Shown here piece by piece: positions 3,838 through 45,663 of a stretch of DNA of 64,000 nt (its first letter is position 1; every line of letters begins with the position of its first letter). The translations under genes were made by a program, and so were the position numbers. The notes under the pieces were generated by a model that did not search any database, was not told where the DNA came from, and saw only the letters and a program-made list of their open reading frames with translations. Source of the DNA: Galaxea fascicularis (lineage: Eukaryota; Cnidaria; Anthozoa; Scleractinia; Euphylliidae); contig OX419339.1 of assembly GCA_948470475.1 (NCBI GenBank), positions 10,167,363-10,231,362 on the forward strand. Direction: 5' to 3'.

Positions 3838-4044
3838 CTTTGTGCTACAGGAAGTACATTTGGGTCTACATCCAGCTTACACTTGGAATCTTTTAACTTT
3901 CCAACTCCCTCAAACACTTTAGGATACTTTGCTTTGAGTTCACCCACAATGTCATCTTGGGAGAGCATTACAATCTGTAACAGGAGCTGTATTTGGTCCA
4001 ACATGAAGGACTCCTAGTGCTCTTGCTGTTGCATTTCCCAGAAT

Positions 4045-9000: not shown

Positions 9001-11035
9001 GAACTGCCTTTGGAGGTTTGGTAGTTGTAGCGAGAGAATGAAGCTTCAGATTTGACTTTGGTCTCGTATACGACTGCTTCTTGTTCCACTCTTCACATAT
9101 GAAATCCTCAAGCGGGTTGAATAGGGTGTCAACTCTTTTGCAAAGCCACCTTTCGAACCCTATTAAGGTAGCTCTCTCAGTATGACCATCAATATGTTCG
9201 TACCATCTCACTCTGAGGTTAATGGGTAACCGCATTGTGGCCCTGCTTAGATACTCTGGTGTTAAAAGTATAGCAGACTGACCCATCTTGACACACCAGG
9301 TGGTACAAGCTTTCACTTGATAATAATAATCACGCAATGCCTGTCTATCATGTGACGTCACAACAGAGTTATCAAGCATGTTCTTTAAGTAGGCTGATGC
9401 CACACTGCTGGGGTTCCCAAATTGTCGCTTTAGTATTTTGAGGGCTGTTGGATAACTATAGCCAGTCACACCCAAACTTTCCACTGCTTTCTTAGCTTCA
9501 CCGCTGAGATTTTGAAAGAGATAGGACATTCGATCCGAGTCAGTCAGTGTCATCTTATTATGGATCTGGTCACGAAATCGCTCTATAAACTTGGGCCACT
9601 CAATCGGCTTGCCTGTAAACTTGAAAAGCTCAAGGGGTGGCAAGCGTTGCTGCTCCTGTGCTCGGAGCAGAGCTATACCAGAGTCTGTCTGTGAGCTACT
9701 GAGATTTGCTGTAAAGACAGTCTCCTGACCATCTACCAGCCTGTCAATGAATGCATCTACAGGTTCTCCCACAGGGTCTACTTGAACTGGTCGATGCAGA
9801 GGGTTTGAGTTAACTTGACTTGAGTGGGAAGTCGATGTACTTCTTGGGCTTGGGCACCACAATGGTGAACTACTTGAGCAAGGGTGGTTCAATGGACTTT
9901 CAAACTTTGGATGATCAGGGGGACAGGCTTGGAAACTATTAACAGCAGGTGATGCACTAACACATGTAGGTCTCAACAATGAAGGAATGACTTGAGGAGT
10001 TTGACTACTCAGTTTTTCTGAACACTCAATTTCAGGCTTTGTTGACCAAGAAACTGACGTGACTGGACTTGCGTATCCAGTACTGTATGCAATCGATTGT
10101 TGGGGCGAGTACACGTAATGACATGAGGATGCTGTATTTGTTTGAAGATCTGACACTAACCCAACAGGGGTAATTATAGGCTGAGATACATATTCACTTC
10201 CTTGGCTGAACGGGTATGGCTGAGTTGGCTTTAGGGTAGAACTGTAAGTTTGCATATTGGATTCACTGTCTTTAATAAGGGGTGTCTGAAACGTGGTTGA
10301 TGTGCACCCACAGCTGTTAGGTGCATAAAACTCTAGGACCTTTGGCGGTAAACACTTAGCTGTTGCATTAACTGGGGTATCTGCATGCGAGACGACAACT
10401 TGTTTGTCATATCGCAGAGATGTATGATCTGACGTTTTGTGTTCTTGGGAAACATATCCCGAAGTCATTCCAGGGTTCACTTCAATACATGGCTTTGAAA
10501 ATTCATCCATACTTTCAGCACCAGTATTCACATTAGGACTTGGAACTAAACAATGTTTCATAGATGTTACTGTTTCACTGACCTTGCTGTCTTGATTCTT
10601 TTCGGCGTTTCTTTCGGTAACTTCTTGCCCTATTATTTCGTGTTCGAGCTGGGCTAATTCGGCTTTATTCTGGGCTGAAATAACTGCCTTTTCGCTCTCT
10701 CTTTTCTTTCGAAGCAGCTCCAGCTCCCGTTTCCGATATTCAAGTTTTAACTCTAAGTCGCGTTGAGCCATTTCTTCGCGAAATTCCTCTTCACGGACTT
10801 CATTTTCTCGTTTCACTTGTTCGGCTAACTGTTTTGCCTGTAGGTTGGCGACGGCAGCTTTCATTCTAGCTTCTCGCTTTCTCTTAGACGAGGACGAGGA
10901 CGAGGACTTTGACCTCACGGAATCATTCAGACTTGAAACTTGACTTATCGAGTCTTCAGGACTTACTTCGGGACTGTTTCGAAGCGGGGATATCACACAT
11001 TCATCCACCAAGTGCCACGTACTTTTGAGGCTCAT
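6017..11035 (-). CDS. Bel/Pao polyprotein (Gag, protease, RT, RNase H; no integrase)
   Basis: About 1670 codons in one frame. I place the start at the Met of MSLKSTWHLVDECV (11035), because the longer frame begins inside the LTR. In order: a Ser-rich then highly charged coiled-coil stretch (EEEFREEMAQRDLELKLEYR); a DUF1759 Gag-like region (FTGKPIEWPKFIERFRDQ); zinc-binding cysteines (CVVCSDRHRVAFC, CFNCLKANHQSKEC); an aspartic protease (AALDAGSDSTLIRRDLADHL); the Pao reverse transcriptase (VRVVFDAASKYDKVSLND, GIMADVEQMFHQVGV, catalytic FYMDDLL); RNase H (LHVFCDASEMAYGAVAY, TIPRLELQVAV, LWSDSEIGLHYI). After EYRWISGPTFLML the frame jumps straight to SKDRWRKEYLPSL and the DUF5641-like tail (QEGDLILLKNDDAPRSHWPL). 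The H2C2 finger and DDE integrase core normally found there (several hundred residues) are absent, without a frame break. Confidence 0.94.
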   Translation of the reverse strand: MSLKSTWHLVDECVISPLRNSPEVSPEDSISQVSSLNDSVRSKSSSSSSSKRKREARMKAAVANLQAKQLAEQVKRENEVREEEFREEMAQRDLELKLEYRKRELELLRKKRESEKAVISAQNKAELAQLEHEIIGQEVTERNAEKNQDSKVSETVTSMKHCLVPSPNVNTGAESMDEFSKPCIEVNPGMTSGYVSQEHKTSDHTSLRYDKQVVVSHADTPVNATAKCLPPKVLEFYAPNSCGCTSTTFQTPLIKDSESNMQTYSSTLKPTQPYPFSQGSEYVSQPIITPVGLVSDLQTNTASSCHYVYSPQQSIAYSTGYASPVTSVSWSTKPEIECSEKLSSQTPQVIPSLLRPTCVSASPAVNSFQACPPDHPKFESPLNHPCSSSSPLWCPSPRSTSTSHSSQVNSNPLHRPVQVDPVGEPVDAFIDRLVDGQETVFTANLSSSQTDSGIALLRAQEQQRLPPLELFKFTGKPIEWPKFIERFRDQIHNKMTLTDSDRMSYLFQNLSGEAKKAVESLGVTGYSYPTALKILKRQFGNPSSVASAYLKNMLDNSVVTSHDRQALRDYYYQVKACTTWCVKMGQSAILLTPEYLSRATMRLPINLRVRWYEHIDGHTERATLIGFERWLCKRVDTLFNPLEDFICEEWNKKQSYTRPKSNLKLHSLATTTKPPKAVQIQPYNKGGGNSAHPNEQKCVVCSDRHRVAFCPAFKSKALKERKQVVWEHRLCFNCLKANHQSKECPSTNRCLREHCNRPHHTLLHEDHQSDSHSHISAHCESTDVRSPIFQKENAQPQVPSTSSPQVPSEVPRSINQVSVEPRRKVLLQVLPVQIHGPHGVVDTYAALDAGSDSTLIRRDLADHLRLGGERHQISLNTVGSDAKIQNVSRVSFSLSSKVHPQPISVQGAWVIDRLNVPSVKVSKERVAEQWNHLLNIDLPELDGSDVKVLVGSDMAHLLIHLDVRQGRWDEPIAVKTPLGWTLFGNVDNEHCDTINANFLVTDQQAQLQNQIERFWEIDSYATKQAPSDSGVSAEDRRALSILESSTVKEEGHYKTALLWKAEPSLPNNRAMAVSRLHSAERKLKKNPELARKYRDVINSYISKGHAKKLTPEESRKTTSRTWYLPHHAVLNPNKPGKVRVVFDAASKYDKVSLNDNLLTGPDLLNNLVGILLRFRSGRIGIMADVEQMFHQVGVCEEDRDSLRFLWRDLDEARPPDEYQMTVHVFGAVDSPCCANYALQRTALDQSKNFNEEAVRAVLRNFYMDDLLSSKPNSDGAADLAKQLINLLATGGFRLTKWMSNSREVLAAIPSSEVACDTVDLDRNELPQERTIGVKWYTEQDFLCLRPVKSGFPDTKRGILSATSSVFDPLGLAAPYVIKAKLIIQELWRRQTDWDEELPDEILRSWQSWKDGLKSSQVIAVPRWYGFHRDECQDVQLHVFCDASEMAYGAVAYFRTIGHGRVNVSFIMSKTRLAPIKTLTIPRLELQVAVIAVRLKSKILTEIDFEVDDTYLWSDSEIGLHYIRNNHRRFSVYVSHRGAEIASTSDGKEWHHVPGSMNVADDCTRGIEMCDLTPEYRWISGPTFLMLSKDRWRKEYLPSLTTRSKWNKEQRNLQEGDLILLKNDDAPRSHWPLGRILKTFSGSDGRVRMAEVKTPNGILMRPAAKLCLLEASA

Positions 11036-11080
11036 CCTCAGGCGGCTGGTTTCTTGTATCCGGCTCGAAAGGACCAATTT

Positions 11081-11226
11081 TGGATAGACCAAATAAACAT
11101 AATTTTTAAACACAACGCAGACATGTTTTATTTTGCTTGACCTCGTGCCCCCACTCGCGCGGGCGCGCTCATGGGAAATTTAAAACAAAACCTGGAGCGA
11201 GGCTGCGACCGGAAGTGGCCGCTCCA
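11081..11226 (-). repeat. 5' LTR of Bel/Pao element
   Basis: 146 bp, identical to 5732-5877. The right-hand target duplication ACTCC follows at 11227-11231. Confidence 0.95.
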
Positions 11227-13500: not shown

Positions 13501-15587
13501 ATGGGATTCCTTCAGCAGATGTTGGCTTTTGAACCCCTCGCGGCTTATCCTGCAGCCATAGCGTCGTTTGTACTCTTGGCAGTCATGTTTCTTTACTGGT
13601 ATGGAACGCGTGGTTTTGCTGACCTCAAGAAACTCAACGTCCCCGGTCCCAAACCTGTTCCATTTTTTGGAAACTTCCTAGAAACGAGGAAATACGGTGT
13701 AGTGCACCTGATGTGTCTCGACTACGCCAAGAAGTACGGCAAAGTTTTCGCTGTGTGTCTGGGTGGTAAACCAACGCTCGTTGTTGCAGATCCGGAGATG
13801 TTAAAGCAAATAATGATCAAAGATTTTCCAAACTTCCGAAATCGTTTCGAAGTTCAGTTTCCGGGTCCTCCATTCGAGAAAAACCTATTGGAGGCAAAGG
13901 ATGAAACCTGGAAGAGGATCCGGTCCACGCTGACACCCACGTTCAGCGCTGGAAAGATGAAGCTGATGTTACCATTGATTGAGAAGTCGTGCGACACACT
14001 TATGGAAAAGCTCGAAGAAGTTGCCGATTCAGGTCAGTATTAATCTTTTTTTCGATTTTTTCCCCATCCCTTGAGTCGCATGCTCTTGACGCTTAAGTGG
14101 ATCATTTTAGCGGGGGCGGCTTTCTCGACTCTGCGTCGGCCCCACCTATTAGAAAGCATTTCAAAAAATTAGTAGACACCAAAAGATGCACGAGTTTGGA
14201 AACCATAGGCAATAAATAGAAACCTGGGGAGGGCAGGGAGGGTAAAACTACCGCGAATGACTTTGAGATGACACTAAACTCGATATGACCAAGGAGAAAC
14301 TTGATGCGAGTGTCAAAAGACAATGCCACGCAAGGAGAGTGTCCGCCCTAATTAAGTATTTTGACGAAGCCAAAACAACCAACTGTTCAGCTAAAGCAAA
14401 CTATACGTGCAGCTAATGTACATTCATTGTTATTGTTTTATGATTCTATTAGCTTATTCGCATTATATGCACCTCAGAAACTAGAAGGAATACTTGTTAA
14501 GACTTTTTCGAGTCTTGTCTTACTAGTAGTCAACTATAGTAGTGTAAAGTTCTCATAACAATACATTTTTCTAACTTTCTTCGGCATGGTTTCGTTTACA
14601 GATCAAAGTGTGAACATGCTAGACTGGTTCAGCAAGCTAACTATGGAAGCGATTTTATCCACTGCTTTTGGTGTGGACACGAACATTCAAATGGGCGAAA
14701 ACACCGAAACGCTTGAGAAAGCTAAGGCCCTGTTTGAAGTGCCTTTTATGGTCAGACTGATAGCCCGCCTGCCACTTGGCAAATTACTCCTTAAGATAAT
14801 GTCCTCTGTACGTGGAAACCCGGCGACATACCTAGGAGACGTCGTCAAAGAAATCATCAAAACACGGCGCCAGCAGGGGTCGACGGGAAGGAAAGATCTG
14901 CTTCATCTTATGATGACCGCCAACGAAGAGACCACGGTGGAAGGGGTCAGCAGACTTTCTGATGAAGAGATTGTAGCTCAATCGATTATCTTCCTTCTGG
15001 CTGGCTACGAAACGTCAAGCAACACGTTAAGCTTTATCCTTTATCACTTGGCTCTAAACCCAGATGTTCAAGACAAGCTGAGGACAGAGATCAAAGAAGC
15101 CGTGGAATCCAATGCCAAGAGGAAGTCTCTGTACGAACTGGCTCAGAGCATGGAGTACCTTGACTGCGTCATCAAGGAGTCTCAGCGACTGTGTCCCGCG
15201 GCTGCTCAAGTCAACCGAGAATGCTGCGAGAGTTATGATCTCAATGGAATCCATATTCCAGCTGGCACGGAGATTATGATTCCAATATATGTCCTGCATC
15301 ATGACCCCGACGCTTGGCAGAGCCCGGAGAAGTTTGATCCCGAGAGATTCCGCAGTCCTGCCAAAGACGCCCGCCATGCTTTCCAGTTTCTACCATTTGG
15401 CGCCGGGCCCAGGAACTGCATCGGGATGAGATTCGCACTGATGGAGGTCAAGATTGCTCTAGTGAGAATTCTGATGAAGTACAAGTTTGTAGCGTCACCT
15501 GAGACACAAGTGCCTCTTGAGATTCGTGAAGGCATTACTTTGTCGGCAAAAGATGGAGTGCTGATCAGAGTACAGTCCACAAATTAA
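13501..15587 (+). CDS. Cytochrome P450, CYP3-like clan
   Basis: Two coding exons: 13501-14032 and 14602-15587, joined in phase 1 (TCAG|gtcagt ... tttacag|AT) to give 505 residues, the normal length for a microsomal P450. ATG is taken at 13501 (MGFLQQMLAFEPL); an in-frame TTG upstream is not a start. Features: N-terminal membrane anchor (about residues 15-35), proline-rich hinge VPGPKPVPFFGN, I-helix AGYETSSN (about 310, oxygen activation), ExxR in KESQRL (about 370), PEKFDPERF, and the haem loop FGAGPRNCIG with the thiolate Cys near 450. The haem region continues MRFALMEVKIALVRIL, as in CYP3A and related families, so an ER monooxygenase of lipids or xenobiotics is likely; the substrate cannot be read. 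A splice acceptor (TTTCAG, ending 13463) suggests an upstream non-coding 5' exon. All key motifs are intact. Confidence 0.95.
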
Positions 15588-17189: not shown

Positions 17190-20100
17190 CTATTTAGTAG
17201 GGCCATTCATCAGAGGCTCTGGGTTTTCCATCATTCGTTTCATGGCAAAAATCGTGTACACTGCCCCCCTTAGTTTCCGTTTAGCGTTGAAAGCATTCAG
17301 ATGATCCAGGGTTCCCTTCCGGTGAGCGGTCGATAATCTTCTGTTTTGGGTCCACGCATCTTTGACCAGCTCTGTCGCTGTAATTCTTTCATTCCGATCA
17401 ACCATGAACTGCAAAAGTCCAGGAACACAAAGAAATGTTAGGTTAGGAAAAGGCACCACGAGTCTCCCGAGATAACGAAGGGACGCGAGGTTAGGTCAGA
17501 CACCACAGATCTCGCATGGTAAGTAGTAGGGGTACCTAGGTAGCCCCCACCCCTCCCCCCATCTTAATGCAAAAGCTCACTTTTTCTTTCAAACGACATG
17601 CTTTAGTTTGAAATCACAAGCTTTCCAATACAGTTCCTTGCCTGCTATCACTTTTATAATTATTACAAATCTTACGGGCTCATAGTTAAACTTTTAACAG
17701 GCGCGAAGAGCTGCCATTTTGGAAATAGAGACTTCCAAGATTACAAGTGTGAGAACACTGCGCGCATGCGTAACGAGTGCCACCGCAAAAAAAAAAAGTA
17801 TACATCATACCGGGATTTTAGGGAACAAGTTGTATTATTCAGATCGGTCAGAATTGTTTATGATTTCTTAAAAAAAAAATAAAAACGGGGAACTGCAGTG
17901 AAGAATAATTGAAGAAACTCTGCTAATTACCATGCTTTTAATTAGACGTTTAACTCCGTCGGATATAGATCGCCACTCCTGGTCTGGAAGGTTAAACTTT
18001 CCTCGTGCAATAAGTGTGAACAGTTCATCTCGATTTGTACTCCAAAACGGTGGATATCCAGCCTGTCGGGAGAAGATGTAGGGACACATGGCTGGTATTG
18101 AAAAATTAAATTCGTTTTTCTGTCAATTAAACCTCCTTGTCTCGCTTATTTCTATAGAAAAAATCTCTTATGCTTGAACTACTTCTACTGAATACTACCC
18201 CAACTGCAAGGTTAATTTGTGTCCTTGAACTGACTCAATGTATATGGCTGAAAAACTGTCCTTCTGGAAACGACCCCCTTGACTTTTTCTCCAAATACCC
18301 TAGCCTTTATTCTCTTCTAATTGGCCCTAGATTGACACCATGAATACTGTCCCGTACTTTGAACTCGAAACACAGCATAGAACCACACTCGTTCCCTGGG
18401 GCCCGTTTCTCGAAAGTCCCGTAAACGTTCCGGGCCCGAAAAGCCATTTCAAAAACTGCGATCCTAAATGCTGGCCTTTTACTATGATGTCAAGATACGA
18501 AAGGGCAAACGCGTACCAGTTGCAAAATTTCATTACTGGAAACGTCGCGTCTTTGTTTTTGAGATACATAGGAAATTATAGCACCCGAAATAGAGCCAGA
18601 AAGTTTCGGGAGTTTCGAGAAACGGGCCCCATTACGAAGTCTCACTGTTTTATGAGACGTTTCCGGAATGTCCAAACTATAGAACAATTTTCAACGTGAT
18701 TGGGTCATAATACATTCATTGTCACGAAAACACAGTTAACTTACCACCAAGGTGTAGAATATTACTGCGCATGCCCAAACATCGACTTCTGTTCCAATTG
18801 GCTGCCTCGTAACAATTTCAGGAGCAAGATACAAGGGCGAACCCTCAACTGGGCAGGTGATGAGGTCTGAGTGATCTGGAGCATATATGATGGAACATAT
18901 GTTAACCACGAAAAAGGCAATTTCAACGTTCTTAGACGACTAGTAAATGTTAGGGTTGGTGTACAGTAGTGAACGTTCGTTGCCAGGGTTAGGTTTCTGA
19001 TTTCCTCAAAACCCAGCATTCCATCACGTTATTATGATAAGACAGCGGTTATCATTTCACTCACCTTAAAAAATTAAGGCTAAATCGAACAAGGTGTACG
19101 TTCTCCTAAGGTTGAAAGTCTCAAAAAGCCTAAAATGTTTGTCAGCGTTCCCTGATATTTTGTATGGTTTCACGAACCGCTCCGTGGTTGCAAACCCTGT
19201 CCTTTAATGTGTCATTGATACTGATTCCTACCTGGTAACTTCCTCGCCAAACCAAAGCCACTGAGTTTTAAAGGGGGAAAACGATTGTTGTTCTCGGCAG
19301 ACTTCCAGCCAAGAATGAGTTTCTCAGGTCTAATATTCTGTAAAAGAACACCCACTTGAAAATTATAAAAAATCAAAAAGGGACGATAAAAACCGTTTCG
19401 GAGTGAACATGACTCTATTATCAAGGGAATTATGTCACAGATCAGGAAAATTACAGCATTTAAAGTAATCTTGGCGCGAAAATTAACGTAACGGGGCGCG
19501 AAAAATGCTAGAAAAAGCAAGCGTTCTAGACTTCCTTTTAGCAAAGGAATCCGCGATCTTTGTCCCTCAGTACCATACAAATACAGAAGAAAAAGATTCG
19601 CAATGGGTATATTATACTTGGAGAACTGCACTTCCGCGAAAAATGCCCACATATTCAAAGTTTAAAAGTGTCTTTCAAACTTCTTTCAAGCAGTTCGCTA
19701 CACACTTGCAACGAGGCGGGACTTAATTGACTATTCATCTTTCACGTGAATTTTAAAAAGGAAAGCTTTTCAAAATGGTCGTGTTTTTAGAAACGATAAG
19801 ATACGCAATCTATCGTAAAGAAAGCATGATCTTCGTTTCCAAGAAATTTATTCTTCACTATTTCCGAATTGTTTAACAGTACAATGTTCGGGAGAAGATT
19901 AACTAAGATAGCATTCCCTCCCGTCACTAGTCAGGGAAACAAAAGAACTTACTCTGTGCACAATCCTGAGCCCGTGAATGTACTGTACAGCGCTAAACAG
20001 CTGCAACATAACCTCGCGTGCTGTGCTCTCAGAAAACGAACTTCTGGACACCAGGTCCTCGAAGAGCTCTCCGCCACAAGCCAGCTCCATAACGAGGTAA

Positions 20101-23100
20101 TATTTATCGAAGGCAGGGTAAGAGTGGTGCAGTTTGAGAATGTTATGGTGACCCATTTCTTGGAGAATCTGAACGAATAATGAAATCAAAGCATTATATT
20201 CTTAGTATGCTCTAACCTCGACTTTGAATCAAGTAAACATCATGTGTAACCGTTCAAAACAGCTAAAACAAAGAGGTTATCACAATTCAACCAATTACAT
20301 GGCTAGGTGTTTATTATTGGTACCGCGTGGATTCACTCTACTGGAATTAACAGATTAAGGTTGGGGGTAAACATAGCTTCCTACGCAGATATTCTTTTGG
20401 CTCGTCACGTAAGGAGGGTTGAGTAATATTTCGAAGACACTCCACTGAAGGGCTGTTTTTTGCCGGATTCCAACCCCCATGCACTAATAAAAGAAAGCCC
20501 TCAAAGCAAACCAGACAGCGCAAGATCAGTACTGATAAAAATGTACCGACACAAAGAGTGCAAAACACTCCCGTCAACACATTGAACAACTCCATGACAG
20601 ACAAGACAGTTCAGTTTTACTGGCGTTCTTTTTTCAGCAAAAGCAAAGACGAGAGACAGTAAAAGTCACACGATCAAAAGCATGAGGCTTTAAAGAGTCG
20701 GAGTCTGCAATACCGGCGTTTAAACAATTTTTTTGAAACTTTTGAAAACGAGTTTTAACAACAATGTTTTGCTATCATCATGAGAAAAATCAATAATATA
20801 TGTTCGCTTAAACTGGTCAACGAGAAGTGTAACCGGTACAATGTCACAACATTTAACAAACAAAACTTTGTTTGACCGTTAGTCAGTTACAAAGGGTAGA
20901 AATGTATTAAGTCAGCTTGCAAAAGACACAACAATATTTTTATTTTCTCCTTTAATTTAATTCGGCTATTGGCGAGGCCCTGTCGGGGGGGGGGGGGGGT
21001 TTAGTCATCCCTTATCCCTAGAATTCCGGGGGCAGTTATCCCTTATCCCTAAAATTACCGAGACTGTTATCCCCAAAACTACTTATCTTTGGAATTTGAC
21101 ATCTGACACATCTTGCTTGAATTTGGACTGATAAATGACCCGTTACTGTTTGTTACCGGTCGCCGGTAATGCAGATCCTTGGCAAAGACCAAAAGTGTGA
21201 CAATTGAGACTGATCAAAGCTATTTTTTGTCATCCCTAAAATTATCTTAGCGGAGCTCCGCGCGCGCCGAAGGCGCGCGCGCGCGGAGCACCATTGGTAA
21301 GAAAATATGGTAACCCATCCATCCGAGAAATTTTGGTTATGACGTCATCGTACGACCGACCGTCCGACCGACCGTACGTACGTCCACCCCATCATGTAAG
21401 CCAAAGTCAAATGTGATACTCCAGTTAACCCTTTCGTGTGCAAGCTCGCATGTAGGCGCCCTTCCATATGGACTGTTTTTGGAAAGATCATTTGGCCATA
21501 CACGCAGTTCTCAACCCGCGTTTTTGTGGCGGGAAATTGCATGGCCAAATTTTGAAGACAGTTTTAAAACAAAGTCAGTTTTGTTTGGTCTATTCGCTGG
21601 CGGAATATTAGTGACAAACAATGGGAGAAAGAACAAGAAAGGGCACAAGTAAACAGTCAGAGTATCAGTGACGAACAGCGAGAGAAAAAGCACGAGCAAA
21701 CCGGCTGAATTGTATTGTCGAGCAACGAGAGAGAGAACAAGAAAGGGCTCGAGTAAACAGGCTGAATCGTACTGACGAGCAACGGGAGAAAAAACAACAA
21801 AAAGTTCGAGAAAAGAGACGAAATTATAGTGAGGAACAGCGAAAAAGAGAGCGTCTCTTGTCAAGCTGTAAAAACATTACCAAGTGTCAGGAAGTTTCAG
21901 CTTTTCCTCGTGTTTGCCTGCAGAAGCTTGCATGAAGAGAAAAGATCGTGTGGTCTGGCAGGGTTTCAGTAATTATACACTGTCTTCGGACCTTGCTGTG
22001 TATTAAACTGGACGGTTTTGCCGCTAAAATCCTTAATTGAACAAGCTTCCTTGATAGGCATGAGACGTAATAAGACTTACTTTTGTGTGAAATGACCCAT
22101 ATGGCTTCTGCTTAAGCTCTGCGTTCGGAGTGATTGTTGACTGACTTAAACTGTGCTCAGGTTAGTACTCCTGTTTTGTCTTTTATATGGACATTTATGC
22201 CAAGAAAATTGAATAGCGATTTGTTTCGGTTTGTTACTTGTCTTATTTTTTCCGATTTGTACGAGAAACGTCGAATAGACATTCGCATCGGTTTCTTTTT
22301 TCTTACGTTTTGTTGTTTTCACGCTTCCATCTCAAATTGGTTTGGACTCTTGTTTTTTCCAAATGTTTTCTACCCAATATTTCATCTTGGATCCTAAAAC
22401 GTTTCGTTTTTTCCTGCTGTCGCTCATTTTAGGGCACAAAATTTGTTGAAGAAAAGCCAAGCGAAGTCCGGACGGTTTATAACCTCGGCCCCGCTTGGTA
22501 AGTTTGACATTTGGAAAACTCTCGCCGAAAGAATAACAACTCCATGCCAAAAGTAAACGCGATTTTTAACAGTTGCAGCATTGGAAATGCCAGCAATATG
22601 TTGTCCCTCGCCGCAATTCTTAGCAAAGCAATGATTTTGTGTGATATGACGGCTATTATGTAAGCTCTGCGTTCGGAGTGATTATTGACTGACCTAAACT
22701 GTCCGCATCCGCAGGTTTAGTATTCCTGTTTTGTCTTTTATACGGACGCTTAGGTCAAGAACACTCGGACTAGCGATTTACCTAGGTTACTCTCGAGTTA
22801 TGTTTGTTACTTGTCTTATTTTTCCAAGAAACACCAAAACGCCGAAGAAACATTCGTATCGTCTTTTGTTTTCTTACGTTTTGTTGTTTTCACGCTTTTA
22901 TCTCAAATTGGTTTGAACTAAAAAATGCTTGTGTTTTTTCCAAATGTTTTCTAACGAATATTTCATTAGTGGATCCTAAAAGTCTTCGTTTTCCCTGCTG
23001 TCGCTCATTTTTGGGCACAAAATTGGTTGAAGAAAAGCCAAACGAAGTTCGGACGGTTTAAATCCTCGGCTCCGCTTTGTTAGGAACAAGAGCCGGATTG

Positions 23101-25637
23101 ACATTTGGAAAACTCTCGCAAAGAGCGACAACTCCTTGCCAAAAGTAAACACGATTTTTGACAGCTTTAGCAGTCGAAATGCCAGCAATATGTTGTCCCT
23201 CACAGCAATTCTCGTTGTTAGTTAAAAAATCATAGACTTAATGGGCTAATTGCATTAAAAACTTCGTCTTTAATTCAATGTTTATTGACAAATGTTTTTC
23301 TGAAACCGATTTTCTTGTCTGTTGTCATCGCCAATCAGATGTTATCATTAACAATGATGTAAAAAATAATACCGCGCACGACTCGTAGTCAACGTTTGTC
23401 GTTTGCAATATTTGTAGTTGATCGAAGTCAAGAATAAAACCATTCTCAGCCATTTGTAGTTGATCACCTGAGTTGATTTATGGCTTATCGTGCCGCAGCC
23501 ACTTTTCAGAACGAAAAGTTAAGTTAAAGTCATTTTCGCTTAATGTTTTTCGGTGCTATTGTACAAAGGACACAGACGGCACTTTTCTATCGTCTTTACT
23601 CTTATAGCTCACAAAAATGACGCCATAAAATAGTCAAAACAAGGCGAACAAAGTACTTTTCTTCTTTTTTGGGTGGTGGTGCGAAGAGTACCCACTTTGG
23701 GGTTTTACCATTTTGTTTTGTTGAGGAATATTTCGGTTTGTTGAGGTTAAAATGTCAACGATACATGTTAGAAAATTTATGACTTAGCCAAAGCGCATAA
23801 CCGGTTGTGATGTTGGATTTAAAAGTGAGACACTGGGAATGTTAATCTATAGTTTAGAGATTTACACCATTTGTATTGAAATGTAATCGGATGTAATTAA
23901 ACTGTGATGAAGTAAAATCGTTTATGCTCTGGTTATGTAGTCCCTCGATCCAACGTGGCAAAGCCGATGATAAATCGAAAATGTACGTTAGCACATGTTT
24001 GAATGGTGGCTGTGGCTCTGCAGCAAAACAGTAAAAACTATAATCACAATGCAGAAGTCCTTACTAGAGTCCTGGCTCGAGTCCTGGCATTGATTTTATT
24101 TTACCGGTAAATGCCATACAATAAAAAAAGAACTGTGGAGCTCCGCTTTTAGGTTTGCCTAAATATATATATTAGTTATCCCTTATCCCTATAATTATTT
24201 AGTCAGTTATCCCTTATCCCCAAAACCCCTAAACGAGGGCCTCATTGGCAGAAGCTAGGCTTACCAATAGCGATTTATGGAGTTAAACTTGGTTGCACTG
24301 ACCCAGCTCACTTACTAATGAACTGATTCAAGGACGGTGAATTACTGATAATCCAGCTAAATCTTTCATTAAGCCTGTTTATAGTCTCTTTTTCCATGCA
24401 AAAATAATACGCATAAAAGCGTTTACTATCATAGGTTTAAAAATGCAATCAGATTTGTAGTTATTTACGTTAAATGCTAAAGAAAAAACTTGCCTAGCAA
24501 CAGAGACTAATAAACAATCAAATGCACATCACGTTCATGACGTTTCGTAATGAAGATGAGGCGTGATGAAGTGACCAATTAAGAATTTATAGTGTCCAAA
24601 TAATCAACACGCGACTGTGTCTCAACGAGTTACGCCAATATGTGAACATCAACGGTTAGTTTGCAGCTCGCTTTCCCAACTCGTTTGTCTCCCCTGAGAA
24701 AGAATTATTGTCACCCTATGTATGCAGTCAAATTCAGAAGGCCTTTCTTTCTCGAACAACGTGAATGCAGAAAGTCACGTTCATTAACGCGCGAAGGCGT
24801 GGATTTTATGAAATGATTTCCTTTTCCATTCCGTTTTCTCTTTTCTGTTTGCTGTCGTGCATATATTAACTAGCTGTCATTGTTCTGTGGTATTGATCTC
24901 TGTCAAAAAAACTGTCCAGGTTTACGCACTGGCAGTTCTTTTGTGTAAGCTTTATTATGACTTTATAGTCATCACTTCTTAACACGATGAAACAATTCTA
25001 AGGTTGACTGTTGATTTTTTTTTAATTGTGTCGTTTGGTTAGCAATATCGACCATTACTACTTATTGTTAAAGCAATAAACTTAAGCATCTTAAAGATCT
25101 AAGTACTGCTTCAGGAAAAAAAATACGAGTTGCTTGATTAAGTAACTGTGTTAACAGTTATGTTTCTGCTTGGTATAAACTGGACTGCTTTCTTCGCTTT
25201 TCACAGTCCGGCAACAAAGTTCGCGTTTGAACTTTAAATTCCCGTTGACTTTGGCAAAACCATTCAATTGTGTGCTGGGAATATCTGAGAAATTTAAATG
25301 CAGCACGACTGAGGGCAGAGTAATAAATAGAAAAATGAGTGAATTAAGGTCCAGTCTGACTGTTAGTGTAATCTGTTGAAGGCCCGAAGCCAAGCCGGCT
25401 TAGGAAATTTTCTTTGCACTGTGAGAAAGCAACAAAATTGTACCAGTTAACAAATTAAAGGCTAATTCGGCTCACCTCTATCTCCTGTTTAATCTTTTCT
25501 TTCTGCTCGTTTGTATTGTAAGACATTTCTTTCACCGCAAACGCTAGTCTAGTCCGTTTATCGACGCATCTTTTGACTTCGCTGAAAGACCCCTGGCCCA
25601 AAATTTCTCTGACGTCGTACTGGCAAACAAATTCCAT
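17190..25637 (-). CDS. CaMKII/CASK-like pseudokinase, tandem copy of the kinase at 28279-34173
   Basis: Six exons on the minus strand: 25637-25476, 20168-19953, 19337-19232, 18875-18745, 18062-17931, 17408-17190, all phase-consistent, giving about 321 residues. Exons 1, 2, 4 and 5 are exactly as long as those of the neighbouring kinase (162, 216, 131, 132 nt). The Gly-rich loop LGQGSFSEV, the Lys of FAVKEM, the alpha-C Glu region and the APE box (YLAPEI) remain. The catalytic loop reads HRNIRPEKLIL instead of [11 protein letters not shown]: the catalytic Asp is Asn and the metal-binding Asn is Lys. The Mg-binding DFG is GFG (KLSGFGLARKL), as in CASK. The end keeps the CaMKII-like regulatory stretch (HRKGTLDHLNAFNAKRKLRG) and stops after MNGPTK. 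Open frames and intact splice sites argue for a functional non-catalytic or ATP-binding-only role; this is inferred. Intron 1 is 5.3 kb and carries a large repeat element. Confidence 0.88.
18398..18630 (-). repeat. MITE-like foldback, copy 1
   Basis: 233 bp with terminal inverted repeats GGGGCCCGTTTCTCGAAA / TTTCGAGAAACGGGCCCC. Lies in intron 4 of the pseudokinase. Related copies at 26701-26934 and 37963-38165 are in the opposite orientation. Confidence 0.85.
21255..21289. repeat. GC-rich hairpin
   Basis: GCTCCGCGCGCGCC, a GAA-type loop, then GGCGCGCGCG...GGAGC: alternating GC, able to form a very stable stem or Z-DNA, inside the candidate element. Confidence 0.75.
22081..22620. repeat. Tandem repeat unit, copy 1
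   Basis: About 540 bp from TTTTGTGTGA to GCCGCAATTCT. The next 580 bp (22635-23212) repeat it with scattered substitutions and indels, e.g. shared CTCTGCGTTCGGAGTGATT, CTTACGTTTTGTTGTTTTCA, GCCAGCAATATGTTGTCCCT. Confidence 0.85.
22635..23212. repeat. Tandem repeat unit, copy 2
   Basis: Second diverged copy of the 22081-22620 unit in direct orientation, inside the candidate 3.3-kb element. Confidence 0.85.
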
Positions 25638-26525
25638 AACGCACAAGTTTTAGTCCGCTCCAATTATTCCAAAATTGTTCAGAGAGTTCTCTGTGTCAAA
25701 ATGGACTGGGCCGGCGAGTAACTTGAAGTTCATGGAACAACAGTTTTAAAGCCGGAGAATCAACATATGGAGTAAATCCGACTGAATGAAGACAGACTTA
25801 TCCGCAAGGGCTGAAATTGTAAAACCAAGTTGCTACCGAAGGTACGTACTCCTCCACTTTAGTTACTGGGTTGACTCAATTGAGCGATGTTGAAGTTTTC
25901 CGAAAATCGTTCAAACTTGCTAAACTTACTGCATCACATCAGAACAGCTTAAGTGAATAATCAGATGTCAAACCACACATTTAAATTAAAGTAGTGTTTG
26001 ATTTACTTCACTGACCAGTCACAAAGACAGAGTAAATAAACAAATGAGGCACACTCAAGTATTGCTCTTGTCGGACTAACGTCATGGTAGCATTTTTTTG
26101 TGAATAGCACTGAGGCGAGTTATCAATTTTTCGAACAAACTAGTACTGAAGTGGCAAGACGAAGGCATCCAGCGTTTCGATTCATTTTAAAGAGTGATTC
26201 CAATTGAATGTAATTAATTTTATCATATCACGCATGTGCTAATTTCAGTGTAGCGTGAGCTCATGTAGGCAAATGGGGACGGGGTCGGATGTAGGAGAGA
26301 TGCTTGATGAGATCCTATCACCCCCTCCCTCCCCCGTGATCCCAAGCACTTTGTTTCCTTTAACAGGAGAAGCCCTACCTTCACCAGAGGCTAATCTCTC
26401 CACCCTATATAACTTATATAGGTGTGGGATTTGGTTTTATGTCATGCTCAGAAACTGGATTTTTTCTGGGTAGTGGGGAGCCTTTCTCAAAACTCTATGG
26501 GAACCAACGTTGTAGGCAAACTAGC

Positions 26526-26528
<3 letters not shown>

Positions 26529-26608
<80 letters not shown>
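26529..26608. repeat. (AT)40 microsatellite
   Basis: Uninterrupted AT dinucleotide run of about 80 bp. Confidence 0.98.
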
Positions 26609-26610
<2 letters not shown>

Positions 26611-26700
26611 TTATTGCTTTCTTGCTTTAAAGTTTCTTAAAAATCAATTTGAAGTCGAACTTCTGGTAATGAATCCACTAGTGCACCTAAAAGCGCGCCT

Positions 26701-26934
26701 GGGGTGCGTTTCTCGAAACGGCCCCAAAACTTGTCGGGTCTGTTTCGGGTGCAACAATTTTCTACGTATCTTAAATACGAAGACGTTTCCAGGCATGACA
26801 TTTTTGCAACAAATTTGCCCTTTACTGTCTTGAAATCATTTTAAAAGACCAGCATGTTGGAATAAGAGGATCGCAGTTTTAGATCTGACTTTTCGGGCCT
26901 GAAACGTTTTCCGGGACTTTCGAGAAACGGGCAT
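26701..26934 (+). repeat. MITE-like foldback, copy 2
   Basis: Begins GGGGTGCGTTTCTCGAAA and ends TTTCGAGAAACGGGC. The interior shares GGGTCTGTTTCGGGTGC and the CAGGCATGACATTTT motif with the 37963-38165 copy. Confidence 0.85.
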
Positions 26935-27297
26935 CTGGCTCGAAATAACTTAGGGTCTTAAAACTGAGCGAGAAGAGGGAGAGGGGCTGGGGTAGAGCTA
27001 TGTGGACTGTTGACAGTAGAAGTATTGAGCTCTTTGTCAATTAAATTTCAGGCCGCTGACGGTTGGCGTTTGATTTATTACGATATTATACCCGTCGAGA
27101 ATTAAATGTAGTAGTTTTGTATACATTTTTACGCTTCAGTTTTCACTATTTATTTTCTAAACATTAAAGTCAAAATAAACAATGTTTGATTTTTCGACAT
27201 ATCGTACCGTTTTAGCGGTCGTTTTCGTTAACTTTTAGCCAAGCGGTAGAAGTGTGGTCTAGGCGGGAGTTGCATGACGGTATGGACCGACAAAGAG

Positions 27298-27299
27298 AA

Positions 27300-27350
<51 letters not shown>
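27298..27350. repeat. (AAT)n microsatellite
   Basis: About 16 uninterrupted AAT units. Confidence 0.97.
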
Positions 27351-27351
<1 letters not shown>

Positions 27352-28278
27352 CGAACAACAGAAGCACAAGGGAGGGGTGGGGAAAGAACGAGAGGTTTAT
27401 TGGTTCGTTCTCCATTTCGTTCTATTTCGTTCCTTCCCCGCCCTTTATTATTTTTTTTTTCTTTTCGCCCAATGCATTCACGCGAGTTTTGGGCTCGGAA
27501 TCGTGTGTTCTGTGAGTACTTGTCGACCAACTCAGTTGCATGTTTTTTTCCTGGACCACCGTAAGATGTACCTAGATTTGCCGTGTTAGGCCATTTGACA
27601 TTAAATTTACCTCATTAAGACCATCCAATAGAGCAAGTTTTGCCACACTGAGTCTTATAGGGACGTTAAATGCCTTGTTTTCCGTACTTTTTAGCACTTT
27701 TTCCTTACAAATCTCGCCGAGATTACATTCAATCGAAACGTGGTTTCATTAGGTTGGGGTCCTTGATAGAGTAAATTTTTGGATGATTTGTGGAATATTG
27801 GCAGGAAAAAGAGTTGTTTGGAGGAATGGTCAAAATTATGAAAAAGAATGGAAAATATGGGATTTGCAGGTGGTTGAAAATTTGGACTTGAACCGGAAAC
27901 AAGCAAGAAACGAAACACACATGTCAATCCCTCCCCTCCCACCTTGGACGTCCTTGTCACCGGTTTGGAATCTTGTTGCACTCCTTTGTCTTTTACGTCG
28001 TTGTCTGAGTTGTGATTGGTTGATTGCCGTTATCGTCTGATAAAATGCGATTACCGTAAAGCGTGTTCCACATCAGCACCTTGAATCTTTACTGAAGTGT
28101 CAGGCTGACGAACAGTTTTATTTCCTAGCTCCTTTTTATATGGACAAGGACATCTCTAGATCCAGGCGAAACGTTTCTGTAAGCAAGAGTAATCGTATAC
28201 ATAAAGTAATTGCTCTAGTACCCTGCGAGAAGTGTATTGCTCTAGTTTTACGAGAAAATATGCATTATATTAAAGGAG

Positions 28279-31200
28279 CTAATCTTCGTCGTTGGCTTTT
28301 CTGCCTCTTCCCCTTCCTTCTCCTGCCTTGACTTTGACATACACTGAACTACGAAACTGCCGTGATCTTCTCGGTCTGATGTCCGTGAGGTGATATTCTT
28401 TCGGCCCGGATTTGGCTAAGTCGTTATCGCGTCCATTGACTTCTTCGTCGATTTTCGGAAGTCTCTGTTCCTCTTCCTTGTCTTTATTCGACAAAATCTC
28501 CCGTACCTCTTGTTCTAGCTGCTGGTCAGGTGTGTAAGAATCTTTTCTGGACAAACGGACCACGTTTCTACTGGGGGTAAAAGTGAGCCTATAATAAAAT
28601 GTTAAAAGAGCATTTGATCACTGGATAATACACGCCCGTGGCCAAGCTCTTGATCATCTGTTAATCAGCCATACAACTTTCTACTTTTTTGCAGTCAAAC
28701 TGGGCTGTTCTCATATGCCTACCCTCCTATTATTGGTGGAACAACAGATCAGAGACGCAGAATATATTTTTGTAACTAAACATTACAGTCAATCAAAGAC
28801 ACTTTCCATCCTTTGTTTCACAAGTTACTGCTCAGTAGCCTAAGTGGCTAGCACTAGAAAGGGGAGGGGGAGAGGAGAAGTGGGCGCATGCGCGCACATG
28901 CACGGGGAGTGAAACGAGGAAGAGAAAGAAGGGACATTTTACGCGAGGCTCATTCGCCACTCCCTTCCCTTTCTACTCAGTGCATGATGCGCAGCTTAGG
29001 TCACCAATGTCTCTATGCAATTACCAAAGCAGACAACTAGTGAAAAATAGTCTTCAAGGGATGCTGTACCTATAGAAATATAAAGGTTTTGTTTTACATC
29101 CCAAATTAATTCGTGAATGGATGTTATACCTCTTGCGGGCGATAAGTCCCAAAACGACACCTTTCAGCTTTCTTCGAGCGTTGAATGCTGTGAGTCGCAC
29201 GAATGTCGTTCGCCTGTGAAGGGAGGGGACAAAATCGCCTTGTGCTATCCAGTCATGACGCAGGGCATCAGAAGCTGTTATTCTCTCATCGAGATTAACA
29301 GTAAGCTACAAAGATAGTAAAGAAAGCTATGATCACGGATCACACCCGGTTAGAATTAATGTCAGTAATAAACCTACAGTCAGGATTAGCGCTAATATTA
29401 ATAATATTACTATTACTAAATTCTCGGGGACCTAGATCCAACTAGCCTGACATTATTATCAAAGTCAAAAAGCGGAAAACATGTCTGCTGGTCGATGTGG
29501 CTATCCCCGTTGAACGAAATATACATATATCTGTGAAAATGTAGATAAAAAGGTTGTGGTTCTTCATCGTGGTAGTTACAGTAATAACAATATAGTGTAT
29601 CATCGTTTGCCTCACGATGCCGGTGCCACTACTGGGCCGGGTTGTTCAAAGCCCGATTAAGCTAACCCAGGGTTAGCGAGAATTTTGATTTCAGTTTTGT
29701 ATATTTTTGGTTAGGTAATTTGGTTATATTGTTTGCCCTGCAGTTTTGAGCTGTAGTAATCTCAAACTACACCAAAAAATAGTGGTGAAAAACGTTGTCA
29801 AATAAGAAAACGTAATGCTTCAGTTAACGTTTAACCCTGGGTTAACGTTAACCGGCTTTCGAACAACCCGGCCCTGATGTAGATCGCCACTTTCCGACTG
29901 CTTACTGCTGGTCTTCATCAGGCAATGAGGTCGACTGGTTGCGCTCCACAACTTGTATCACAGTGGTCGGCTGTGGTGCATTTCGATCCCACATTGCGCT
30001 TCTACTGAATCACCCAAACTCGTTCCCAGGGCTTTTCCCTTTGAAATCGGGAAAGGGAAAAGCCCTGGGAACGAGGTTGTGAATCACCTTCAAATAAACG
30101 TTTAGTAGCACAATGTATTACCATTTTCCTTATCAGATCCTTAGCGGATTCGGAGACCGTGTCCCAGTACGGAGAAGGAAATGTGTAGTTTCCCTGGAGA
30201 ATGCTCAAAAGTAGAAACTCGACTCTATCGTTCCAGAATGGAGGATAGCCAACCTAGCGAAAAATATTGAAAGAAAATTTAGAAAATTGAAACTCGCTTA
30301 CTAGTCATCATGACTATACGAAAATAGAGCTTGAACTTACTGCCCTTTTTGTTATGAATCATTCATGTGACTTCGTTCCTTTCACCACATTTTTAACAGT
30401 AATGTTAACCTCCTCAGGACTAAAAATACGTACAAGTAACAGATAAAGGATAACACCGCAGGCCCAAATGTCTACGGCGCAATTGACGGGTTTCTCTAGA
30501 ATTGTTTCTGGTGCCATGTACATTGGAGAACCACTACCATGACAAACAACCGCTTGGCCTCTCTCTGCAATGCGAAAAGAAAACAGTCATTTTAACTCAT
30601 TAAGCTCATCATCTTTCACTATCGTGTTTCTACCTACATGTATGTAAGTAGATCTTGAAAATCATACCTTCTATCGACTTTGCGATTCCAAAATCTGTGA
30701 GTTTAATTATTGGTGGACGGTCCCCGGAAGGTATCTCAGCCAAAAGTAGATTTTCTGGTTTTAAGTCCTGCAAGAGAAAGAAAAACACTGGAGGCAATGC
30801 AGGTAATACCATGCGTGGAGAAACGGAAGCAACGACTGGTATTGTTGCTTTCGTCATTCTTACATTTGTCAGAACTGGCCAGCCAGACCGGTCATTTTGA
30901 AAATGAAATAGGCTTCTTCGGAGAGTTTTTGCTAAAAAAACATTCCTGCTATGCATCATACTATGTAGAGATAAACTGATCTGTTTGGACAGTTCTCATT
31001 AATAGTGGAATTTTCTTTACAAATGGACCGGCATGGCCGACCAGTTCTGACTAATAGTGAGCGCCCTTAGTCTTCCCAAAACACTCTTGTCAATTAAAGC
31101 GACGACGTAATAGTCTCGCCACTTATCAGCTTGCTTACTTTCTATGAACAGTGCCTGATATTGCATTAATCCTCTCCAAGAAATAGAGCCAACTACAGAG

Positions 31201-34173
31201 TAAATAGATGGATGAGGGCAAGTGATTTATTTTTAGCACGATTTACGTGCCTGTATTTCCTTACCCTGTGTATGATTCTTTTCCTTGAAAGGTAATTCAG
31301 AGCTGTGATGATCTGTCTCGCACATGCGCAAGCGTCCTTTTCACTGTAGAAAGGTCTCGATACCAGGCCATCGAAGAGGTCCCCGCCGGGAAGGTACTCG
31401 AGCACCATCAGGACTTTGCCTTCCGCGTAAAACACCTGCTCCAGACGAACTATACTCACGTGGTCGAGCTGTTCCAAGATCTGCAAATGATCGGTTGGTG
31501 ACGTAAATTATTTGAAAATAGAACTGCTGTGAAGGTTAAGATCTGAGCGGGTAAAGAAATGATTGCTAGTATTTTCAATGAGGTCATTTTACCAGCACTG
31601 AGGAGATTGTAGCCACGCTGAGTCGTTTTATTGTATTATTATTATAAATTTTTTTTGTCGGACAGTCAACTTATTATCTCAGTATCTGAGGAGTAACATT
31701 ATTCAAAGACATGATGTTATGAAGAATCTGAAATCGTATGACCAAGAAAGAATCACAGAGGTGAATAACAGCATCCAGTTAGCGACCCGGAGAGAAAAAT
31801 TCCCATACGAATTGTTTTATACGTTGCGTACGAACAAACGGACGTTCATCAGTTTTATTCCTGACACGCCCCATTTTTGACACTATTCTTCTCTTGGCTG
31901 AGTTTGTATCTTGTTTCCCGGAAGAAATGATTGTTACCAAGCAAAATTAGTAAATATAACGCGATAGCAAATTAGCATTTGTTTCAGGAATTCTGATTGC
32001 ATCGATAACTTCGTTTATGGTAGGCCCACTCAACAAAATTACTCATTTCTGATTGGGCCAAGAGCAGTATAAGAATCTCAAATTTCTGTTAAGTTTCCAT
32101 GACATCAACGCGCAAGCACAGCTAAATGTGACAAAATCAGTCAAAACTACACTTAAGGTGAAGTTGCGATTCTGTGGAATTTGTAAATGAAAAATTGCAC
32201 GATCTCATTCAAATCTTGGTTTTGTCGAGCGAACTATTAACAAAAATCGCACTGCTTCATCGTGACATTGTACAGTATCCGTGATCATGATGATGACTTC
32301 ATTAGTATTCGTGATTTTGAAAGTTCTCAAATTCGAGAACTTTCAAATTAACTATTGTTCTTATTAATCATTTATTGTACTCAAAGTCCAGCGACTTTTA
32401 ACACTAACACTGCGGTCTGAAAAAACACTAACGGACCTCCTACGATGGGGATGTACTCTGCGGACTGCACAAGAAACTGTTTTAGGATCACCTTAACTAT
32501 CTTATTGTTGATTGTACGTGTGCCATAAAAGTAGTAATAGGGCTCTAAATATCGGTAGAGAGCGTACAGACAAAATAAATAGATTTAATGTCGGGAAAGC
32601 GCTGCTGCGGGGGTAATTAGATCTGTTAATTAGGTAAAAATTACAGGAACGATTACTCCGGAATGACGAGTATTCAATATCAGCGGCATCGGAAGGGAGC
32701 ATTTACATTTTGCGTTGTTCACGGGGTAGACACTGGTAGACACCTTCGCTAAGACGTCACATCTGATAATGAAGTTCAAATTAACACGATCGATGAATGG
32801 TATATTCCGTGAAACCTGAAAATCAAGCTAATCAGCAAACTTTGTGACAGTACTGTCCTGTTGAAGCCTTCATTTTCATTCAAAGTCGTAGAACTGAGTT
32901 AAAACTACTTTTGTTATACAGTACATAGAGACTCCAGAACCGAAATATAGTTTTGCTTCTAGCTCATCCAAGTGGTGAAACTGTCATAATAAGGATAATA
33001 AGGATACTGACATACAGAGGCCTGAGATAGCTACGGCGCACCACTGTGGGAGGGGGGCAACACACTTTGTCTCAAGACCGACAGCACTAAACTGTGCCAG
33101 CTGCCCAATGGCAAAAACTGAAAACTGACAGGATTTTAGACCCGCTAAGTGACAGTGTCATGTCGTATTTTGATAACCCAGCTAATGCTTTGTAAACTTT
33201 TTTACTTTGTGTTTTAGACAAGGAATTGTCACACGTTAACCAACGTTTCCAGTAAAAAAAAAAATCGAAGCGGAAAAAAATATGGACGAGCTTTATTTGG
33301 AGTAGCTTTTAACAAGCCAGCTTGTTGGTAGAGCCCTTCGTGAAAATGGTTAATGAAAATTCAAAATCTCTTTGCCCTAAACCGCCGTAGAGGAAACTAT
33401 AAGTTGACGTCATAATATTCTCATACAGTTCAGTTTGTTTTCATAACTTTCAAATGTGACATTTATTACGTAGCTCAGAAGTTATGTAGAGCCTTAATGT
33501 GTTGTACGATGACAATGTCTTGTCTAATTCAGTTGTTCTTGTTTTGGCCCGTTTATCAAAATGTCTGAAAACTATACCGAATCAAACCAAGACTCTGTTA
33601 GCGGATACGTACAAATCAAAATATAAGGAAAGAATGTCAAGCATTTATTCCCAAACTGTTCTTCTATCTATCACAGCAGCGCTTTTATGTCAATGATAAA
33701 GAAACTCAAAGCTAAACTGACCTAAATTCATTATTTAATGGACAGACTGGTTTCAGAAAGTTCCATAAGTGACCTGTGTCAATGGTAAACAAATGAGCTC
33801 ATCCAGGTTTGTCGTCTGAGTGAATGAAAGCAAAGCACTGGAAGGAAAAGGGGCTTCATGATTGATTCAAAAAATTAACTATGTCTCTTGTGCAATCGGC
33901 CACTTCATTTCTGCTTCCCGCTTCTCGTTTAAAAAGCGTTTCTTTCGCTTGTCCCAAACTCTCAAGTCGATACCTTAACTAAGCATCAAAACTAAATGAG
34001 TACTAACATACCTCTGATTCGCGTTCAACCTTTTCTCTCTCCTCTGCATTTTCGTAGTGAATTTCTTTGACTGCAAATAGCTGTGACGTTTTTCGATTAA
34101 CACACTTCTTGACTTCAGCAAAAGATCCTTTGCCAATAAGCTCCTTTACATCATAAACATCTTCAAATTTCAT
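28279..34173 (-). CDS. CaMKII/CASK-like Ser/Thr protein kinase
   Basis: Seven exons on the minus strand: 34173-34012, 31480-31265, 30767-30668, 30564-30434, 30253-30122, 29305-29130, 28570-28279. All junctions agree in phase (0,0,1,0,0,2) and give about 402 residues. Start [12 protein letters not shown] (34173); the upstream in-frame codon is TTG, not ATG. Motifs: Gly loop [12 protein letters not shown] Lys FAVKEI, catalytic loop [11 protein letters not shown] (split at the exon 2/3 junction), [38 protein letters not shown]. After the catalytic domain, [20 protein letters not shown] matches the autoinhibitory and calmodulin-binding region of CaMKII, including a Thr placed like Thr286. Exon 7 adds a charged Glu/Arg-rich tail instead of the CaMKII association domain, so it is probably monomeric. 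All catalytic residues are present. Head of a tandem pair with the pseudokinase downstream. Confidence 0.92.
29634..29874. repeat. MITE-like element with 22-bp terminal inverted repeats
   Basis: Begins GGGCCGGGTTGTTCAAAGCC and ends with the near-inverse GGCTTTCGAACAACCCGGCCC; the interior has TTAACCCTGGGTTAACGTTAAC. 241 bp, in intron 5 of the kinase gene. Confidence 0.85.
30015..30079. repeat. Snap-back element with 9-bp target duplication
   Basis: 24-bp perfect inverted arms (30019-30042 and 30052-30075, each starting CTCGTTCCCAGGGCTTTTCC in the outward-in direction) with a 9-base loop. Both sides are flanked by TGAATCACC (30006-30014 and 30080-30088). Lies close to exon 5 in intron 5 of the kinase. 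Confidence 0.85.
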
Positions 34174-45401: not shown

Positions 45402-45663
45402 TTTGAGCGAACACTCGAATAAGTGGGGTGGGGTGGTACTGTACTAAAAGAAAGAGAAATAGTTGCATTAGCCAGCAAAATCATTTTAAGATGCATGGAA
45501 AGTGTGAAGTAGATTACTTAATTTCCTCTTATAGAATGAACTCATTCAATTTTTCTTTTTACAAGAAATACTCTTTCCAAATCCTTGATGGCATCGTACC
45601 CTTACCCACCCCTGACGGACTTTGACAAGTTTGCGATGCATACTGGGATCTGGGATTATCAAC
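45402..45663. promoter_or_regulatory. Putative bidirectional promoter, SDR / PSMB5
   Basis: Only 262 bp separate the two divergent start codons, so both transcription starts should lie here. No TATA box is obvious; TACTGGGATCTGGGATTATC lies 13-33 bases before the PSMB5 ATG. Confidence 0.6.

Follow-up and report, generated by a model that had tools for sequence, protein, structure and literature searches.

Pseudokinases with active paralogues are already known, and so are pseudokinases with calmodulin segments. Some of these described kinases provide points of comparison for gene B of the coral Galaxea fascicularis, the subject of this analysis. We know of no hub domain in the vertebrate pseudokinase CaMKv. 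STRADalpha belongs to another kinase group and, to our knowledge, has no calmodulin segment.

CaMKv, like gene B, belongs to the CaMK pseudokinases; it has a calmodulin-binding segment with the cognate Ala302, and B has a putative one. According to PMC5095516, the calmodulin binding of CaMKv via Ala316 is needed, while the ATP-binding Lys and kinase activity are dispensable. It also has a PEST domain, whereas B ends shortly past its regulatory helix. PSKH2 shares with B that it is a CAMK-group pseudokinase with an HRN motif, and it has a canonical paralogue, PSKH1. However, according to PMC9988210, the HRN of PSKH2 is found in primates only and its remaining ATP-coordinating residues are kept, whereas B has an old HRN and has lost its metal residues as well. 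STRADalpha has a basic residue at the position of the metal-binding Asn, as B does, and is a pseudokinase that acts in complex with an active kinase (PMC4718504). Here the analogy concerns mechanism only.

The window, the whole stretch of 64,000 nucleotides that we analysed, is C5:10167363-10231362 of the 416.6 Mb Galaxea fascicularis genome. On its minus strand a pair of kinase genes lies head-to-tail, with gene A upstream of gene B. Gene A (34173-28279, minus) has seven exons and encodes 408 aa. Gene B (25637-17190, minus) has six exons and encodes 321 aa. The exons, in positions of the window, are as follows.

Gene A exon 1: 34012..34173, minus strand, 162 nt, start codon at 34173
Gene A exon 2: 31265..31480, minus strand, 216 nt
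Gene A exon 3: 30668..30767, minus strand, 100 nt, starts at the Asp of HRD and contains KPEN and DFG
Gene A exon 4: 30434..30564, minus strand, 131 nt
Gene A exon 5: 30122..30253, minus strand, 132 nt
Gene A exon 6: 29130..29305, minus strand, 176 nt, regulatory segment
Gene A exon 7: 28279..28588, minus strand, 310 nt, tail and stop
Gene B exon 1: 25476..25637, minus strand, 162 nt, start codon at 25637, Gly-rich loop, beta-3 Lys36, alpha-C Glu52
Gene B exon 2: 19953..20168, minus strand, 216 nt, last residues are the His-Arg of HRN
Gene B exon 3: 19232..19337, minus strand, 106 nt, starts at Asn127 (for the catalytic Asp) and contains RPEK (Lys132) and GFG (Gly153)
Gene B exon 4: 18745..18875, minus strand, 131 nt, activation segment, APE
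Gene B exon 5: 17931..18062, minus strand, 132 nt, C-lobe
Gene B exon 6: 17190..17408, minus strand, 219 nt, end of the C-lobe, RKGT (Thr282), predicted calmodulin-binding segment 289-308, stop

Neither frame is interrupted between ATG and stop, and every intron is GT-AG (6/6 in A, 5/5 in B), so the frames and splice sites of B are intact, as the first-pass annotation of this DNA had stated. The shared exon plan that it described also holds. Exons 1, 2, 4 and 5 have equal lengths in the two genes, and introns 1-5 of A have counterparts in all five introns of B, at identical alignment columns and phases. Exon 3 differs in length by two codons, and the extra seventh exon of A encodes a tail of about 100 residues.

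Gene A looks like an active kinase. Its HRD, KPEN and DFG lie in the motifs HRDLKPEN and TDFG. The corresponding motifs of B are VHRNIRPEKLI and SGFG. Hence the catalytic Asp, the metal-binding Asn and the Asp of DFG are all replaced, just as the earlier reading had it. B nevertheless retains the beta-3 Lys, the alpha-C Glu, the Gly-loop and APE, and scores 211.5 bits against the Pfam Pkinase family. By the sequence definition B is a pseudokinase: a kinase fold with N127, K132 and G153 in place of Asp, Asn and Asp. We predict that it is inactive as a kinase. Traces of activity are possible in HRN pseudokinases, for which HER3 and JAK2 are cited (PMC9988210).

The replaced residues are not peculiar to this coral. 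In a protein search, B had 218 matches, of which the best 120 were examined. The best nine of these are B relatives, P0001-P0009. P0001-P0006 and P0009 are 68-88% identical to B, P0007 is 56% and P0008, from Actinia tenebrosa, 54% identical. Among these 120 matches the closest record reaches 88% and none is identical to B. A profile search with eight B rows, which relies on shared five-residue words, gave 402 matches at E <= 1e-10. Ten of the best 120 are B rows or fragments (P0001-P0009 and P0242), and the remaining listed matches are protein kinases with at most 43% identity to the B of the window.

We counted catalytic-loop residues in nine distinct sequences: the B of the window, P0001-P0005 and P0007-P0009. 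P0006 is an apparent isoform of P0003 and was left out; the letters of P0242 at 154-155 are intron-derived and were excluded from the counts. N127 (for the catalytic Asp), R129 (for the Lys of HRDxK) and G153 (for the Asp of DFG) are each present in 9/9 sequences. K132 (for the metal Asn) is present in 8/9, with Thr in P0004. The last DFG position is Gly in five sequences, Ser in three and Arg in one. In place of the His of HRN, P0004 has Tyr and P0007 has Gln. All eight distinct rows counted for the beta-3 Lys and the alpha-C Glu have both residues, and seven of eight have the Gly-loop; P0007 reads LAMGMF there.

B is also nearly as conserved as A. The mean pairwise identity of the kinase domain is 84.2% for six coral-like B rows (P0005 without its first 58 residues) versus 86.4% for nine A rows, with the coral status of unlabelled rows taken from their identity. 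Residues 289-308 of B, the predicted calmodulin-binding segment, are 100% identical in 6/6 coral-like rows, and the A rows are 94.9% identical there. Protein-level conservation thus differs little between B and the active A. The deep branches are longer in B than in A, with a coral stem of about 0.5 versus 0.17 changes per column, and part of the divergence of B may reflect relaxed constraint.

We find it hardly credible that B is a pseudogene in decay or an artefact of the assembly. One could point to its 5.3 kb first intron with tandem arrays, to its faster deep evolution than that of A and to the absence of an own-species B record among the matches listed. But the frame is open, all introns are GT-AG, and other species have the same substitutions with a conservation near that of A. 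We reject this explanation because orthologues carry the same substitutions. The idea of a maintained pseudokinase, put forward in the first-pass annotation, survives: coral-like rows and Actinia share the replaced residues, the frames are open and conservation is near that of A. B gives the impression of a signalling protein that is maintained without catalysis, not of a decaying gene.

Whether both genes exist in other anthozoans was a further question raised by that annotation. For A the answer is positive, with records named for Montipora, Oculina, Nematostella and Actinia. For B it is positive for Actinia, the only species name among the B-type matches listed, and for the coral-like rows. 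No B record under a stony coral name (Montipora, Oculina) or under Nematostella is present among the matches listed (120/218 and 120/402). Gene prediction, clustering at 90% or real loss could each explain this shortage in named species. Judged by its sequences, the B family is real, conserved and of CaMKII type, here in hexacoral-like rows.

Several records resemble spliced transcripts. P0121, with 408 aa, is near-identical to A (two residues differ) and lies on a contig of 1557 bases. This contig fits a spliced A, since it is too short for the unspliced gene of 5.9 kb. The full-length B relatives P0001-P0004 have 321-323 aa on contigs of 1234-2269 bases. These contigs are probably spliced transcripts as well, because they are shorter than the 8.4 kb unspliced span of B. 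No record or transcript of the window's own B is present among the matches listed (120 of 218). P0009 contains an apparent intron 2 between HR and N, plus the start of intron 3. In P0006 exon 1 is joined in frame to exon 3, so that exon 2 is skipped and residues 55-126 are lost; it is possibly a non-folding isoform. Both records appear to fit the same exon borders in other species.

The C-terminal part of B resembles the regulatory segment of CaMKII. An AlphaFold2 model of B (mean pLDDT 89.5) is a two-lobed kinase with a long C-terminal helix, in which confidence falls over residues 281-310 (85, 69 and 61 in blocks of 10 residues). The best PDB match of the model is an autoinhibited CaMKII, 2bdw from C. 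elegans, with a TM score of 0.90. The regulatory segment of B, AHRKGTLDHLNAFNAKRKLRGAVYTIFAMKR, aligns with the CaMKII rows. B therefore has a putative autoinhibitory and calmodulin-binding helix of CaMKII type. In the distant rows the calmodulin segment is not identical to that of B; it reads KGAVYTMLAMNSL in P0007 and KGAVLTVFAMNRM in P0008.

Thr282, Phe289 and Thr301 of B are what we take to be Thr286, Phe293 and Thr305 of CaMKII. An R-x-x-T at Thr282 is found in 9/9 B rows that cover the site, including P0006 and P0242 (P0008 and P0009 do not cover it). Ala298 of B corresponds to Ala302 of CaMKII and is Ala in 10/10 B rows that cover it, again with P0006 and the fragment P0242. The equivalent of Thr306 is Ile, Val or Met in B rows. 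At the Ala302 position 13 of 14 A rows, several of them near-identical, have Val, and P0134 has Leu. Because this position is Ala in B and Val or Leu in A, the calmodulin segment of B is more CaMKII-like than that of A. Exon 6 of A (29130-29305) has lost both Thr305 and Thr306. The calmodulin binding of A may differ from that of CaMKII.

Overall, B is similar to CaMKII in its best sequence and fold match and in its equivalents of Thr286, Phe293, Ala302 and Thr305. It differs in the absence of the catalytic Asp, the metal Asn, the DFG Asp and the hub domain, and in not keeping Thr306. In Pfam, the hub domain PF08332 has no match in B nor in P0121, the record of A. P0121 also matched two kinase-like families below the cut-offs.

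To explain the persistence of B, we propose that it is an ancient CaMKII-like pseudokinase, here in hexacoral-like rows only, that acts as a non-catalytic binding module gated by Ca2+/calmodulin. We hold this to be probable, if only just. The reading draws on the retained CaMKII-type segment and on the precedent of CaMKv. At rest, the regulatory helix of B would occupy the substrate groove, as it does when CaMKII is autoinhibited. Ca2+/calmodulin would then pull the helix out, and the exposed groove could bind partners without phosphorylating them. Phosphorylation of Thr282 in the R-x-x-T motif, in trans by A, CaMKII or another kinase, would hold B open. B could thus act in response to calcium as a scaffold, a decoy or a sink for calmodulin, in the manner of CaMKv. 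Gene A is a possible target but not a necessary one. Calmodulin binding by B is predicted. The trees described below contained no CaMKv row, and the likeness to CaMKv is one of mode of action.

What happens in the nucleotide pocket is a separate question. B may bind nucleotide without metal, as STRADalpha does, with Lys132 (or, in one lineage, an Arg at the DFG Gly) standing in for the cation and the nucleotide stabilising a closed form that binds partners. We regard this as possible, although we would not expect it. In its favour, the beta-3 Lys and alpha-C Glu are present in 8/8 rows and the Gly-loop in 7/8. In STRADalpha the Arg of GLR and a His at the Asn171 position replace the cation (PMC4718504). 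Among the nine B sequences P0004 is the only one without the Lys, having Thr, and also the only one with Arg at the DFG Gly. This swap is suggestive, not proof: it is a single event, and P0004, which also has Tyr for the His of HRN, may simply be drifting.

The GFG of B also brings human CASK to mind. Human CASK reads HRDVKPHC and GFG, has a CaMKII-like kinase domain and shares an FNA(R/K)RKL segment. Could B then be active after all, as an atypical, CASK-type kinase whose phosphate transfer needs no Mg2+? B combines GFG with an intact Gly-loop and beta-3 Lys, as human CASK does, and human CASK is reported to be active without cations (PMC4718504). Yet human CASK still has its catalytic Asp, in HRD, and B has HRN, with Asn in 9/9 sequences. 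B does not group with CASK, and the CASK of the coral itself reads DFG. We consider such activity in B very improbable.

The coral CASK gene lies at C10:18957796-18966675. Its exons contain HRDLK and PHNILLASKENSAPIKIADFGVA, and HRDLKPHN and DFG are kept. Since coral CASK keeps HRD and DFG, the GFG of B and the GFG of human CASK are best read as separate changes. The first-pass annotation had likened the GFG of B to CASK; this resemblance is best read as convergence. A clade of B and human CASK is weakly rejected (p-AU 0.0349, with a long CASK branch). In Pfam no MAGUK domain (L27, PDZ, SH3, GUK) was found in B, whose 321 aa hold a kinase domain only. None of the five A/B intron columns matches any of the nine piece ends of coral CASK, 6/9 of which have a GT donor within two bases. 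Based on the missing MAGUK domains, the tree, the intron columns and the DFG of coral CASK, we reject a CASK origin of B. The alignment and tree with CaMKII and CASK, which the first-pass annotation had proposed as a check, place B as CaMKII-like and not with CASK.

A and B are identical at 121 of 303 residues (40%), and B and CaMKII are also 40% identical. As A and B have diverged about as much as B and CaMKII, they are an old pair. Both have CaMKII as their best PDB match (B 238 bits to 2bdw, A 281 bits) and score lower to CASK (B about 188 bits, A 227). A tree of 38 rows unites A and B (99/98) and separates them from CaMKII and CASK. This tree did not contain three extra genes of the coral, which change the picture.

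Searches of the coral's own genome (candidates scored: 124/160, 129/281 and 124/274) found no close matches besides the two genes of the window. Three further CaMK-like genes with HRD and DFG lie at C7:15818326-15820363, C8:26159461-26162804 and C8:9122421-9124012. They form one clade (100/99). One intron was found in their kinase domain, in a shared column that differs from the A/B columns. No CaMKII-type regulatory helix was seen in the last frame read of these genes. With them added, the tree groups A with the three genes (97/92) and leaves B outside. Neither the grouping of A with B (p-AU 0.0555) nor that of B with the three genes (p-AU 0.0681) is rejected. All trees were built without the B records P0006, P0009 and P0242 and the A records P0121, P0129 and P0130, which are partial, deviant or near-identical.

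The view of A as the sister of B, taken in the first-pass annotation, is thus uncertain. The exon plan with 5/5 shared introns and the tandem position are in its favour, and at a p-AU of 0.0555 it is not rejected; the best tree, with three genes nearer to A, does not favour it. The three CaMK-like genes may descend from a retrocopy of A, which would have lost the introns of A.

If A and B are a functional pair, B may directly regulate its sister. Their kinase domains or regulatory helices would pair, or A would phosphorylate Thr282 and be held or competed by B. The tandem head-to-tail position and the shared exon plan are consistent with this. Moreover, both types are present in Actinia tenebrosa (P0008 is B, P0133 is A), B has a conserved R-x-x-T, and B is structurally nearest to the kinase domain of an autoinhibited CaMKII. 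However, A and B are no closer to each other than B is to CaMKII, at 40% identity, and three other genes are nearer to A in the best tree. The two Actinia records lie on different contigs, of 59 kb and 145 kb, which are uninformative on linkage. Several named species have an A-type but no B-type record among the matches listed. Direct regulation of A therefore seems unlikely to us.

A more specific combination is a long shot. In it, B would be a hexacoral-specific, non-catalytic Ca2+/calmodulin sensor with a metal-free nucleotide pocket, in which the cation is replaced by Lys in the Asn171 position or, where this Lys is lost, by Arg in place of the DFG Gly. Its calmodulin gating would act through a frozen helix, and A would phosphorylate the Thr286 site, making A and B a writer/reader pair.

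If the calmodulin-gated binding module that we prefer is real, a CaMKII-type pseudokinase arose independently and long ago in non-bilaterian animals, and among close relatives its calmodulin segment is more conserved than its kinase domain. The purpose of calmodulin gating without catalysis could then be addressed in anemone models, in comparison with vertebrate CaMKv. Independently of this, GFG in human CASK and in B are best read as separate events, as coral CASK reads DFG. The Actinia tenebrosa record is labelled calcium/calmodulin-dependent protein kinase type II-like, and its motifs predict inactivity. Among the listed matches in open-access PubMed Central, no title or abstract start names a B-type cnidarian pseudokinase.

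The surroundings of the two genes show a few further features. The first intron of B (20169-25475, 5.3 kb) contains tandem arrays with periods of 57, 31, 24 and 12, and a plus-strand frame within it (21672-21932) consists of repeated basic units with no Pfam match. By eye, intron 5 of A has an inverted repeat at about 30015-30080, CTCGTTCCCAGGGCTTTTCCCTTT with its complement nearby. The kinase pair is flanked by a cytochrome P450 frame (14559-15584, plus; PF00067, 289 bits) and on the other side by a short-chain dehydrogenase frame (44634-45443, minus; PF00106, 114 bits). Two retroelements, at 2341-3876 and 6020-11179 on the minus strand, show a reverse transcriptase/RNase H frame and a Pao-type frame (Peptidase_A17).
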